A DNA stretch of 41,617 nt from the NCBI GenBank assembly GCA_022865905.1, contig JALHUM010000358.1:1-41617 (forward strand), read 5' to 3'. Below the pieces are notes generated by a model. The model was not told the origin of the DNA. It did no database searches and saw only the letters and a program-made list of their open reading frames with translations. Made by a program: the position numbers and the translations under genes. Of this stretch, positions 13,239-36,588 are shown piece after piece (position 1 is the first letter of the stretch; each line of letters opens with the position of its first letter). This DNA comes from Anaerolineales bacterium. Lineage in GTDB: Bacteria; Chloroflexota; Anaerolineae; Anaerolineales; Villigracilaceae.

Positions 13239-13281
13239 ATGACTACAATTGAAACGGTAGTAGGGAAGAGACTTGTGCGTA

Positions 13282-13307
13282 ATGGTAGCCTGCAATCAGG
13301 CTACCAT
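13282..13307. repeat. Hairpin repeat in the P2 arm of glycine aptamer 1
   Basis: A perfect 11-bp stem, ATGGTAGCCTG / CAGGCTACCAT with loop CAAT, is followed by a word array (GCGTAAAGCGTAAAACGTAA). A second copy of the hairpin lies at 30781-30803. Confidence 0.8.
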
Positions 13308-13467
13308 AATGCGTAAAGCGTAAAACGTAACGAGCGCCGAAGGGGCAAGTCCGGATGGCTGGCGAGGCCGGACGAAACTCTCAGGCAAAAGGACCCTGTA
13401 CCGGTTTCCTCTGGAAAGTCACGTGAACGTGACACCGACGGGGCAATCCTTTGGCTTCGGGTCTCGA

Positions 13468-30687: not shown

Positions 30688-30780
30688 AAGTGTCACCTCT
30701 TTTGGGATCATTCCAGCCGCCTCATTGTACCGTCAGGGTATGGGGATGTCAACGAACCTGGCATCGCAGGTTGTTGTATA

Positions 30781-30803
30781 ATGGTAGCCTTGAAGGCTAC
30801 CAT
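30781..30803. repeat. Hairpin repeat, second copy of the ATGGTAGCCT family
   Basis: ATGGTAGCCT, loop TGA, AGGCTACCAT. It matches the arms of the hairpin in glycine aptamer 1. Its first two bases complete a TATAAT (30777-30782). Confidence 0.75.
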
Positions 30804-30838
30804 AATTGTGTTCATGAACCTTCTCGAGGGAGATTGTG

Positions 30839-32776
30839 ATGCCTGATCGTCGATCTGTTTTCGAAGGCTTTCTCGTTTTCCTGGTTGTTCTTTTAGCCGC
30901 CTGTGGGCCAAAGGGTACCTCCACGCCAACGCCCACATCCATACCCATATCCTCAACGCCCACGCCAACTCCCACGCCGCCGCTCACGTTGACGGTCTGC
31001 CTGGGGGAGGAGCCTGCCAGCCTATATCCGTTTGGGAATCTCTCGTCCGCGGCGCGCAGCATCCTGGCGGCAATCTATGATGGCCCAATGGATACCAATT
31101 CTTATGGCTACCAACCGGTCATCCTGAAAAAGTTACCCAGCCTGGCGGATGGGGACGCGCTGATCAGCGTCGTTTCTGTCTACGTCGGCGACGAGGTAGT
31201 GGACGCGGACAACCTGCCGGTCACGCTGGCGCCTGGCGTGCGCTTCCGGCCGAGCGGCTGCCGGGGCGACGACTGCGCGGTTGTCTACGACGGCAAGGGC
31301 GAGATCCAGATGGATCAGATGGTGGTCAATTTCAGCCTGCTGTCCGGCCTCTATTGGTCGGATGGTATGCCCCTGACGGTGGAGGACTCGGTCTATTCAT
31401 ACGATCTGGCTACCTATCCCGACACGCCCGGTTCCACGTACCTGATAGACCGCACCAAAGCGTATGAGGCCGTGGACGAACAGACCGTCCAGTGGTGGGG
31501 TAAGCCAGGTTACCTCGACCCAACCTACTTCACCAATTTCTGGACGCCCTATCCCAAGCATTTGTGGAGCCAATACACACCGGCCGAGCTTCCTGACACT
31601 GAAGTGGCTGCCCGCGAACCGGTTGGCTGGGGAGCTTACGTAGTAGAAGATTGGGTGAGCAGCGATTCCATCACGTTGAAGAAGAATCCTTACTACTTCC
31701 GGGCGGGTGAGGGCTTGCCAAAGTTCGATACGCTGGTATTCCGTTTTATCACCACGCCGGAGACCGCCATCAGCGAATTGATCGCCGGAAAATGCGACCT
31801 CCTAGATGCCAGCCTGCACCTAGACGGACAGGTCGGTATCCTAAAGAGCTTCGATTCTCAAGGTCAGCTCAAAGCTATCTTCTCCACGACGGACGTGATG
31901 GAACGCTTCGATTTCGGAATCCGCCCGGCCAGCTATGATGATGACTATAACCTCGATGCAGGCGACCGCCTGGATTTCCTGGGCGACGTGCGCGTCCGCC
32001 AGGCGATTGCCATGTGCCTGGACCGACAGCAGGTCGTGGATACAGTGCTGCATGGGCTGACGACGGTGCCCAATTCTTACGTGCCCGCCGACCATCCGCT
32101 CTACAACCCAGACGTGAAGCCATATCCCTTCGACGTGACGGCAGCTAGTCAACTGCTCGAACAGGCCGGCTGGCGGGATCAGGACAACGATCCCGGCACG
32201 CCGCGCCAGGCCCGGGGTATTGCAGACATCCCGGCCGGCACGCCGCTAGTCTTGGATTATTGGACGACCGGCGCGGCCCAACGCAGGCAGGTCAGTGAGA
32301 TCCTGGCCGGGTCGCTGGCCCAGTGCGGGATCCAGGTCAACTTGCAATATTACGATCCCACCGAGCTATATGCCCAAGGCCCGGATGGGCCGTTGTTTGG
32401 GCGCAAGTTCGACCTGGCCGAGTTTGCCATGGGCAGCACAGGTATGGAACCGCCTTGTGAGTGGTTCACAAGCGCCGAGGTGCCGAGCGCCGCTAATCAT
32501 TGGGTCGGCGCCAACATCAGCGGTTACACCAGCGCGGCTTATGATGAGGCCTGTCTCGCCGCCAAAGGCTCTTTGCCGGGCGAACCGGCTTATGCAACTG
32601 GCTATCACGACTCGCAGGCTATCTCCTCCGAGGAGTTGCCCATTGTTCCGTTGTACTGGCGGTTGAAAGTGGCCGCCTCCCGTCTCGATTTCTGCAACTT
32701 CAGCCTCGATCCCAGCGCGGCCAGCGACTTGTGGAATCTCGAAGCTTTCGATGATGGAGAGGCCTGCGCCCCTTGA
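30839..32776 (+). CDS. ABC transporter substrate-binding lipoprotein, peptide/nickel (SBP family 5)
   Basis: A lipid-anchored extracellular binding protein (645 residues) of the oligopeptide/dipeptide/nickel class. Signal peptide with lipobox VVLLAAC (Cys22), then a Thr/Pro-rich linker (TSTPTPTSIPIS). The mature part starts LTVCLGEEPASLYPFGNLSS and has YDGPMDTNSYGYQPVILKKL, LYWSDGMPLTVEDSVYSYDL and VRQAIAMCLDRQQVVDTVLH, all typical of SBP_bac_5. A GTG one codon before the ATG is possible; GAGGGAG gives the ribosome binding site. No permease or ATPase genes follow, so the transporter partners are elsewhere or this is a solitary receptor. Its stop codon overlaps the promoter of the pyr operon. 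Confidence 0.93.
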   Translation: MPDRRSVFEGFLVFLVVLLAACGPKGTSTPTPTSIPISSTPTPTPTPPLTLTVCLGEEPASLYPFGNLSSAARSILAAIYDGPMDTNSYGYQPVILKKLPSLADGDALISVVSVYVGDEVVDADNLPVTLAPGVRFRPSGCRGDDCAVVYDGKGEIQMDQMVVNFSLLSGLYWSDGMPLTVEDSVYSYDLATYPDTPGSTYLIDRTKAYEAVDEQTVQWWGKPGYLDPTYFTNFWTPYPKHLWSQYTPAELPDTEVAAREPVGWGAYVVEDWVSSDSITLKKNPYYFRAGEGLPKFDTLVFRFITTPETAISELIAGKCDLLDASLHLDGQVGILKSFDSQGQLKAIFSTTDVMERFDFGIRPASYDDDYNLDAGDRLDFLGDVRVRQAIAMCLDRQQVVDTVLHGLTTVPNSYVPADHPLYNPDVKPYPFDVTAASQLLEQAGWRDQDNDPGTPRQARGIADIPAGTPLVLDYWTTGAAQRRQVSEILAGSLAQCGIQVNLQYYDPTELYAQGPDGPLFGRKFDLAEFAMGSTGMEPPCEWFTSAEVPSAANHWVGANISGYTSAAYDEACLAAKGSLPGEPAYATGYHDSQAISSEELPIVPLYWRLKVAASRLDFCNFSLDPSAASDLWNLEAFDDGEACAP

Positions 32777-32800
32777 CAAAACCACCGCCTTGCCTATAAT
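32773..32800 (+). promoter_or_regulatory. Promoter of the pyrC-pyrB operon
   Basis: TTGACA (32773-32778), 16 bp, TATAAT (32795-32800): consensus hexamers. The TGA stop of the binding-protein gene lies inside the -35 hexamer. Transcription should start around 32807-32809. Confidence 0.87.
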
Positions 32801-32810
32801 TCCGCCCGAT

Positions 32811-32876
32811 ATGGTTACCCGCCTGTATTTCCGAGATTTCGCGCGGGCGTTGATGCCCACAATATTCATCCTTTAG
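32811..32876 (+). CDS. Putative pyr operon leader peptide (21 residues)
   Basis: An ATG only about 2-4 nt downstream of the expected transcription start opens a 21-codon frame, MVTRLYFRDFARALMPTIFI followed by L. Its TAG stop lies in the first two bases of the attenuator stem. A ribosome finishing the peptide would cover the 5' arm and prevent the terminator, as in the E. coli pyrBI leader, where coupling depends on UTP. With so short a 5' UTR it would be translated leaderless. A small hairpin GGGC/GCCC (32844-32857) could act as a pause site. No experimental support is available here. Confidence 0.55.
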   Translation: MVTRLYFRDFARALMPTIFIL

Positions 32877-32904
32877 AGAGCCGTCATTCGGCTCTCTTTT
32901 TTTT
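32875..32904 (+). terminator. Attenuator terminator upstream of pyrC
   Basis: AGAGAGCCG, loop TCATT, CGGCTCTCT (9 bp perfect), then seven more T. It lies between a strong promoter and pyrC with no full gene before it, so it is regulatory. Confidence 0.87.
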
Positions 32905-32913
32905 ACCTGTTCC

Positions 32914-32945
32914 TTGACTATGAGACTATCCGACTATGAGACTAC
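32914..32945. repeat. GACTATGAGACTA word array containing the pyrC start codon
   Basis: GACTATGAGACTATC is followed by GACTATGAGACTACC. The second ATG is the pyrC start. The words are related to the gcvH-gcvPA array. Confidence 0.75.
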
Positions 32946-34075
32946 CTGGACTTATTGACCCCCACATCCACCTGCGCGAACCCGGTGCGACCCACAAGGA
33001 AGACTGGGACTCCGGCACGTCGGCCGCGCTGGCGGGCGGATTTACTCTGGTGCTGGCCATGCCGAACACAAAGCCACCCATCTTCGACGCCGCCACCCTC
33101 GACCTGGCGCTTGCCGCGGCGCGCTCCAAAGCCCGCTGTGACTACGCCCAGTTTGTCGGTGCAGGGCCGGATAATGCCAGTTGGGGCAGGCGCACCGCTC
33201 GTGCCGCGAACACCGACGGCACGCCGGTGCGAGACGGCAAGGGGCTACCCCGAGGGGCGGCGGGCTTGAAAATGTACCTCGACAGCACCTTCGGTCAACT
33301 GCGCCTGGACGACATGACTCTCTGGATGCAGCACTTCCAGAACTGGCCCAAGGACATGCCCATAGTAGCTCACGCCGAGAGCCGCAGCATGGCGGCGGTG
33401 ATTTTAATGGCCGCAATCTACGACAGGCCGGTGCACATCGCTCACGTCTCGCTGCGGGAGGAAATCCTGCTCATCAAGGCGGCCAAGGAGCGGGGGATCA
33501 AGGTCACGTGCGAGGTCACTCCGCATCATTTGTTTCTCACCCAGCCCCCATCCAACCCTCCCCTAAATTCGCAGAATTTGGGGGAGGGCAAGGGAGTGGG
33601 CGGGGGCAGATGGGAAGTCCGCCCACGCCTCGCCACGCAAGTCGATGTTGACGCCCTCTGGCAGAACCTGGATGTCATTGACTGCTTCGCCACCGACCAC
33701 GCCCCGCACACCCTGGCCGAGAAGGACGGTGAGAATCCGCCGCCCGGCTTCCCTGGGTTGGAAACTGCATTGCCGTTACTGTTAACAGCGGTTGACAGTG
33801 GGCGGTTGACGGTGGATGATATTATTTTGCGGATGCACACCAACCCCCGCCGCATCTTCAACCTGCCTGAACAGCCTGAAACCTGGATTGAGGTGGACGC
33901 TGACGCACGATACGAGATCCGCGCCGCGGAGATGAAATCCCGCTGCGGGTGGACACCGTTCGAGGGCTGGAAGGTGAAAGGACGCTTGCATAAGGTTGTG
34001 CTGCGCGGTAAAACAGCGTTTGAGGATGGCAAGATCCTCGTCAAACCCGGTTTCGGGATAAATGTGAGAGGATAG
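32936..34075 (+). CDS. pyrC: Dihydroorotase, CAD-like
   Basis: Converts carbamoyl aspartate to dihydroorotate in pyrimidine synthesis. A protein of 379 residues. Metal ligands: H10 and H12 ([12 protein letters not shown]), carbamylated K112 ([10 protein letters not shown]), H146 (VAHAE), H170 (IAHVS) and D254 ([14 protein letters not shown]). The flexible-loop residues T118 and F119 match the TF pair of human CAD dihydroorotase. Much of the chain reads like the CAD domain ([48 protein letters not shown]). Two segments, residues 86-99 and about 204-224, are coded by hairpin repeats and look like in-frame insertions. The start codon lies in a word array with no Shine-Dalgarno. First gene of pyrC-pyrB, behind an attenuator. 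Confidence 0.94.
33191..33231. repeat. In-frame hairpin in pyrC, first
   Basis: CGCACCG-CT-CGTGCCG pairs with CGGCACG-C-CGGTGCG, 10-nt loop. It encodes residues 86-99, a segment without counterpart in CAD dihydroorotase as I recall it. Confidence 0.75.
33556..33588. repeat. In-frame hairpin in pyrC, second
   Basis: CCCTCCCCTAAATTC, loop GCA, GAATTTGGGGGAGGG: 15-bp arms with one mismatch. It encodes residues 207-218 between HHLFL and EVRP. Confidence 0.85.
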
Positions 34076-34124
34076 GCTAAAGCAATCCACCCCGCTAGCC
34101 CGATTCATACTCAAAACGATATCT

Positions 34125-34144
34125 ATCAGACTAGGAGACTAAAC
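34125..34144. repeat. AGACTA words supplying the pyrB ribosome binding site
   Basis: ATCAGACTAGGAGACTAAAC lies directly before the pyrB ATG. The AGGAG is embedded in two AGACTA-type words. Confidence 0.6.
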
Positions 34145-35119
34145 ATGCCCACCCCTTCCCCAAACCCCCACCTGCCCTTCGGCGACCAGCGCACAGCGCC
34201 CTGGTACGGCAGAGACATCATCTCGGTCAAGCAGTTCGGCCGCGAAGACCTGGAATACATCTTTGCCGTGGCGCACGAGATGCACGACATGGTGGACCAC
34301 ATCGGAACCTTCGACCTGCTCAAAGGCAAGATCCTGGCCAACCTTTTCTACGAACCGTCCACCCGCACATCGTCGTCGTTCACCGCAGCGATGGAACGGC
34401 TGGGCGGCTCGGTCATCCCGATCAACGAGGTCAAATACTCGTCGGTCTCGAAGGGTGAGAGCCTTCCCGACACCGTCCGCACCCTGGAATGCTACACGGA
34501 TGTGATCGTCATCCGCCACCCGGAAGTTGGCTCGGCGGCCATCGCGGCCAAGGCGGCCCGCAAGCCGGTCATCAACGCCGGCGACGGCATCGGCGAGCAC
34601 CCCACCCAGGCCCTACTCGACGCCTTTACCATCAAGGAAGAACTCGGCCACATTGATGGTCTCACCGTCACCCTGCTCGGCGACCTGAAGCACGGGCGCA
34701 CCGTCCACTCGCTGGCGCGCCTGCTCTCGCTCTACAAGGTCAGGCTGAACTATGTCGCGCCCGACATCCTGCGCATGCCGGCCGAACTGATTGACGAACT
34801 CAAGGCCAAGAAGGTCGAGCAAGCCGAGTACACCACCCTCGACCAGGCCCTGCCCGAGACCGACGTGCTGTACGTGACGCGCGTCCAGAAGGAACGCTTC
34901 ACCGACGAGGCCGTTTTCGAGTCGGTCAAGGGCGCCTATGTGATTGATCCGAAGGTGATGAAAGCTGCCAAGGAACGCATGATCGTGATGCACCCGTTGC
35001 CGCGCGTCGGCGAGATTTCTCCCGAGTTCGACGACGACCCACGTGCTGCGTATTTCCGCCAGATGGAGTATGGGTTATACGTTAGAATGGCTTTGTTGGC
35101 GATGGTGCTTGGGAAAGCG

Positions 35120-35122
<3 letters not shown>
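34145..35122 (+). CDS. pyrB: Aspartate carbamoyltransferase catalytic subunit
   Basis: Condenses carbamoyl phosphate and aspartate to carbamoyl aspartate (325 residues). Carbamoyl-phosphate site STRTS at 72-76 ([15 protein letters not shown]), then the second segment [20 protein letters not shown]. The aspartate domain has [30 protein letters not shown] and the closing [20 protein letters not shown]. No regulatory subunit (PyrI) gene follows. The gene order pyrC-pyrB repeats the DHO-ATC order inside animal CAD, although the proteins are separate here. 69 bp separate it from pyrC, and AGGAG precedes the ATG. The TAA stop begins a word array. Confidence 0.97.

Positions 35123-36588
<1,466 letters not shown>

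Follow-up and report, generated by a model that had tools for sequence, protein, structure and literature searches.

A putative ribosome-controlled transcription attenuator with a near-leaderless leader peptide upstream of pyrC-pyrB in Anaerolineales

In the window (the whole 41,617-nucleotide stretch of Anaerolineales DNA analyzed here), pyrC and pyrB are preceded by a compact unit of promoter, 21-codon frame, and intrinsic terminator (Table 1). This unit is probably a UTP-responsive transcription attenuator, controlled by a ribosome that translates a near-leaderless leader peptide; if the nature of the signal is left aside, we are highly confident of attenuation by a translated leader. Because 60 related loci share this arrangement, sequence comparison identifies the leader-terminator unit as a conserved element rather than a product of chance.

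Table 1. Coordinates of the predicted attenuator and of the downstream pyrimidine genes in the window
Feature	Position	Strand	Basis
-35 hexamer TTGACA	32773..32778	+	TTGACA in 58 of 60 parsed elements, TTGACG in the other two
-10 hexamer TATAAT, spacer 16	32795..32800	+	Spacer 16 in 60 of 60 parsed elements
Discriminator and expected transcription start (predicted, ~32807-32811)	32801..32810	+	-10 to ATG 8-11 nt in 59 of 60 elements
Predicted near-leaderless 21-codon leader peptide MVTRLYFRDFARALMPTIFIL, TAG at 32874-32876	32811..32876	+	Frame open in 53 of 53 non-redundant relatives; pN/pS lowest in this frame in 4 of 4 clades
Pre-hairpin tract, proposed UTP-sensitive pause region (putative pausing)	32856..32875	+	Composition profile, synonymous-site T enrichment
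Intrinsic terminator (putative attenuator) AGAGAGCCG-TCATT-CGGCTCTCT and T-run	32875..32904	+	Conserved in the family
pyrC, dihydroorotase, putative regulated gene 1	32936..34075	+	TIGR00857 as best NCBIfam match (E 3.7e-77; 260 bits, slightly below the curated cut-off of 279)
pyrB, aspartate carbamoyltransferase catalytic subunit, putative regulated gene 2	34145..35122	+	TIGR00670, over cut-off

The leader promoter, of the sigma-70 type, matches TTGACA-16-TATAAT at 12 of 12 positions and was the sole site to do so when positions 30700-35400 were scanned. Since the leader ATG lies 10 nt past the -10 hexamer, a preliminary description of this DNA was right to place a consensus promoter about 10 nt before the ATG of a 21-codon frame. 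Because transcription usually starts 6–9 nt downstream of the -10 hexamer, promoter geometry predicts a 5' UTR of 0–4 nt for the leader message. The sixtieth parsed element (L149), read by eye, has its ATG farther from the -10 hexamer than 8–11 nt. Within the window's genome, the arrangement TTGAC/TANNAT/ATG occurred 19 times, compared with 4 times for the reversed pattern, and several of these sites precede frames of at least 400 codons. Predictions of leaderless genes in Chloroflexi have been published (PMC3160421). A near-identical leaderless-type promoter with a short frame (MVSHRCYFAGMLSYCAGFF...) was found at two places in genome G000 (L159 and L168; C41 and C166), where one of the copies precedes a 449-codon frame. 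The same preliminary description had regarded nucleotide-sensitive start selection as conceivable because the start region is C-rich. Such selection, or reiterative transcription at a C-rich start as in E. coli pyrC or codBA, would suit the discriminator of the window's clade (TCCGCCCGAT), but the discriminator is not conserved across the family (TCCGCCCGAT, CACGCCGAA, TCGGCGCA, and ATTTCAAA among relatives), the distance of 8–11 nt to the ATG is what stays constant, and the expected start has no homopolymer run. Start selection was rejected on account of this variability, and we give it next to no credence.

Searches for pyrC returned 30 loci in genomes of relatives, plus 80 named contigs belonging to Anaerolineales/Anaerolineaceae and other Chloroflexi MAGs. 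When the sequence 5' of these pyrC genes was read directly, many of them proved to carry the unit. A model (R1) was built from 28 elements and was sequence-only because RNAalifold gave no common base pair in the alignment (A2), in which MAFFT probably misaligned one terminator class. Applied to 95 loci, R1 gave 64 matches, including a few duplicates of one genome; 60 were parsed. The element was present at 60 Anaerolineales loci (53 non-redundant) upstream of pyrC or a uracil-permease-like gene, and the order of its parts was always the same; R1 and its filters were trained on such promoters, so the constancy of the promoter is partly by construction, and the frame and stop tests are free of this effect. 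The preliminary description had proposed looking for the short frame in sister genomes, and the 60 loci indeed kept the frame, the predicted near-leaderless start, and the end at the hairpin, with evolution of the coding type. Among 61 relatives, R1 gave 32 matches with E < 1e-4, 31 of which precede pyrC or a Xan_ur_permease (uracil-permease-like) gene and one of which precedes chorismate mutase and DAHP synthase. With strict filters, scans of phylum and order samples gave matches only inside the order. Upstream of pyrC in other families of the order, the same architecture was seen in L184, L185, L186, L187, L190, L191, L193, and L195, several of which carry different hairpins; the region 5' of pyrC in L188, L189, L192, and L194 gave no clear case.

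The distribution of the element also showed several peculiarities. Some relatives are without it, such as L015 from the same genus; there and in L060 (both G002), neither leader nor terminator is present, and the same promoter is directly followed by pyrC (TATAATTCCGCCCCCCATG), which itself appears to be leaderless. Two genomes carry two copies: in G008, they lie before uraA-pyrC and before a second pyrC (C228:4518-4653, L133, and C32:8733-8875), and in G020, one lies before a uracil-permease-like gene and the other before the pyrC downstream of that gene (C1:82660-82785, L180, and C1:84275-84410, L129). In other families, the leaders of L151, L183, L184, L187, and L193 contain, within the frame, a GC-rich hairpin with a T-run behind it, and in most of them a second, final terminator follows; these in-frame hairpins are perhaps pause hairpins or tandem attenuators. 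The sole element match outside pyrimidine genes (L153, G025:C53:18152-18332, minus strand) combines a leaderless-type, Phe/Tyr-rich leader (MANKSFRLYFSSFYYGFHSVAVGCA and stop) with a terminator before chorismate mutase (CM_1) and DAHP synthase, and it is probably an aromatic amino-acid attenuator.

Frame 0 was open to at most 9 nt from the stem in all 53 non-redundant leaders, compared with 17 for the +1 frame, 30 for the +2 frame, and a mean of 21.8 (maximum 31) for shuffled leaders; the loci share ancestry, so that these counts are not independent trials and the shuffle and Fisher figures overstate independence. The stop codon falls 1–9 nt short of the stem in 11 leaders; it coincides with the stem base in 20, lies within the hairpin in 8, and is found past it in 14, that is, at the stem base or further downstream in 42 of 53. 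Some of the frames that run through the hairpin end on the pyrC start codon (e.g., L027, L183, L190, and L193), which suggests translational coupling. In four clades, pN/pS was 0.43, 0.68, 0.50, and 0.16 in frame 0 and 0.75–3.1 in the other frames; coding selection is weak in the 0.68 clade, where another frame reaches 0.77, and clearer in the other clades. The leader frame thus evolves as coding sequence, and its translation is predicted. In place of translational attenuator, the term used in the preliminary description, the proper name is a transcription attenuator dependent on translation.

These data also bear on two alternative readings. If the promoter-terminator unit were a small RNA source or a constitutive terminator with an incidental open frame, its shortness and the conservation of the hairpin sequence in the family would be explained. 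Frame conservation and pN/pS count against this reading, as do the finding that the hairpin sequence differs between families while the frame-to-hairpin arrangement stays and the lack of another promoter before pyrC; we consider it very improbable. Alternatively, the leader peptide could arrest the ribosome on a pyrimidine metabolite, in keeping with the purifying selection on the peptide and with clade motifs such as HHFFGMxVS and RDFLFEPxGL. Arrest peptides, however, usually keep strict residues, and the leader peptides align poorly between clades and are unrelated in other families, which makes stalling by the nascent peptide quite unlikely.

The terminator hairpin of the window (32875-32897) has 9 pairs and a loop of 5, with a T-run to 32904, and its first bases are overlapped by the leader TAG; the earlier observation that the TAG enters a strong intrinsic terminator before pyrC was therefore accurate. 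The terminator stands 39 nt before pyrC-pyrB (pyrC start, 32936). A hexamer scan between terminator and pyrC found no second promoter-like site of at least 9/12, so expression of pyrC from the leader promoter would need readthrough. Folding of 32807-32906 gave -29.3 kcal/mol (z -2.75), almost wholly from the terminator. An antiterminator structure was sought in the leader without its terminator, which folded no better than shuffles (z +0.30), and a structured antiterminator was rejected on this basis. Between terminator and pyrC, positions 32919-32950 hold a short dispersed repeat (GACTATGAGACTATCCGACTATGAGACT), similar stretches of which occur elsewhere in the genome and in relatives, and a glycine riboswitch match (Rfam RF00504) lies at 13252-13406 of the window.

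PyrR was also considered as a regulator. No PyrR element of Rfam matched the window at the gathering threshold, and in 61 genomes the PyrR protein model NF003549 gave no match over cut-off, compared with 6 of 14 controls; the best match in the window's own genome was an HGPRTase. Control by PyrR was rejected on these results, which agree with the initial impression that no PyrR-type binding site is apparent.

The family profile of the leaders shows T climbing from 23–32% to 51–62% at -20 to -5 before the stem; the window copy of this tract is weaker, with 7 T of 20, below the family mean. In the last eight codons, the third base of NNY codons was T in 72% of cases, against 42% in the preceding part of the frame and 34% within pyrC, and Phe codons showed the same shift. 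This enrichment of T at synonymous third positions suggests that selection in the pre-hairpin tract acts on the nucleotide instead of the amino acid. A ribosome-controlled attenuator could nevertheless respond to general translation capacity or growth state, or to aminoacyl-tRNA supply, and not to UTP-dependent pausing. The frame and the stop position are observed and UTP sensing is what we infer; Phe accounts for 20% of codons among the final eight, and the Phe/Tyr-rich leader before chorismate mutase/DAHP synthase suggests that amino-acid-type leaders exist in the lineage. On the other hand, the genes downstream are pyrimidine genes, the synonymous T enrichment favors the nucleotide, and the peptides vary without a common run of one regulatory codon. 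Neither such a run nor an alternative antiterminator hairpin, as in attenuators of the trp/his/ilv type, was found. The stop is also too near the hairpin for the classical type: the terminator of amino-acid attenuators lies >20 bp from the leader stop, that of pyrBI lies inside the leader gene (PMC4824070), and by these distances the present leader geometry is of the ribosome-occlusion type. Overall, a signal other than UTP is unlikely, although less so than the other alternatives.

The unit is best explained as a shorter, presumably nearly leaderless variant of pyrBI/pyrE-type attenuation with a predicted response to UTP. It has a terminator between promoter and pyrimidine gene and a conserved leader frame whose end falls at the terminator, within it, or past it, and a U-rich tract precedes the hairpin in the family, weakly so in the window copy. 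The pyrBI-like geometry proposed at the outset, with a leader frame ending at the terminator before pyrimidine genes, was right and is kept in 60 loci. Outside Proteobacteria, a translating ribosome was reportedly proposed by Van de Casteele et al. in 1997 to prevent the terminator of the Thermus ZO5 pyr attenuator; that model has PyrR as the sensor, whereas the 61 genomes tested here gave no PyrR match over cut-off. The leaders of C. glutamicum ilvBNC and S. meliloti trpL are likewise short peptides on messages with little or no 5' UTR, but these amino-acid attenuators sense aminoacyl-tRNA via alternative hairpins, whereas the Anaerolineales unit lacks a run of regulatory codons and has just one hairpin, which overlaps the stop. 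The E. coli pyrE attenuator lies downstream of orfE/rph, a translated frame that ends just before the terminator and on which the ribosome follows a UTP-sensitive polymerase; in pyrE, a complete enzyme gene takes the part that a dedicated micro-ORF plays in Anaerolineales. E. coli pyrBI is similar in that its pyrimidine operon is preceded by a leader ORF which extends into or through an intrinsic terminator, and in that the sequence ahead of the hairpin is U-rich. The E. coli K-12 pyrL sequence comprises 44 codons with a GGAGG ribosome-binding site in its 5' leader, a U-rich TTTTTCTTCCC tract, and the terminator inside the frame, whereas in Anaerolineales the 5' UTR is predicted to be nearly absent, the hairpin begins ~62–94 nt after the ATG, the stop is most often at the stem base, and pyrC-pyrB or uraA-pyrC-pyrB are the putative regulated genes. 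Coupling across pyrL prevents the terminator in E. coli (PMC5021804).

In the proposed UTP-dependent mechanism, the RNA would start 0–4 nt before the AUG, as the promoter geometry suggests, and a ribosome would load without a Shine-Dalgarno leader once the 5' end emerges. RNA polymerase would then enter the U-rich tract situated 5–20 nt ahead of the hairpin. If UTP is plentiful, the polymerase would pass quickly, the ribosome would lag, the hairpin would form, and the transcript would end near 32904. With scarce UTP, the polymerase would presumably slow in the tract and the first ribosome would catch up, coming to rest at the stop codon, which is observed on the hairpin and in some relatives inside or beyond it. 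The ribosome footprint could then mask the 5' arm of the hairpin and permit readthrough into pyrC-pyrB, and in relatives the same device may serve uraA-pyrC-pyrB. Masking of this kind is backed by published tests in E. coli, in which placing a stop codon 5 bp ahead of a terminator lowered termination from ~90% to <10% and uncoupling of translation abolished the effect (PMC4824070). In the same species, ribosomes do not usually repress a terminator located within the first 100 bp of a coding region unless a pause intervenes (PMC4824070), and the UTP model therefore needs a real pause in the leader.

The near-leaderless start, as predicted from the promoter, is the main novelty of the attenuator, and a literature search found no paper on pyr attenuation in Anaerolineales. 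A wider reading, which we advance tentatively and hold to be somewhat less probable than even, is that this is a PyrR-free control of pyrimidine genes, widespread in Anaerolineales, in which near-leaderless initiation is part of the sensor: a start at the bare 5' end would give the ribosome a defined head start, so that a leader as short as ~65–80 nt could measure polymerase speed in the U-rich tract. To our knowledge, this would be the first known ribosome-coupled UTP attenuator on a leaderless message. If the proposed attenuation is true, the pyrBI type, best known in enteric bacteria, would extend to Chloroflexota, where it would be a frequent, PyrR-free means of controlling pyrC and uraA in Anaerolineales, and leaderless initiation would support tight coupling of transcription and translation within ~70 nt.
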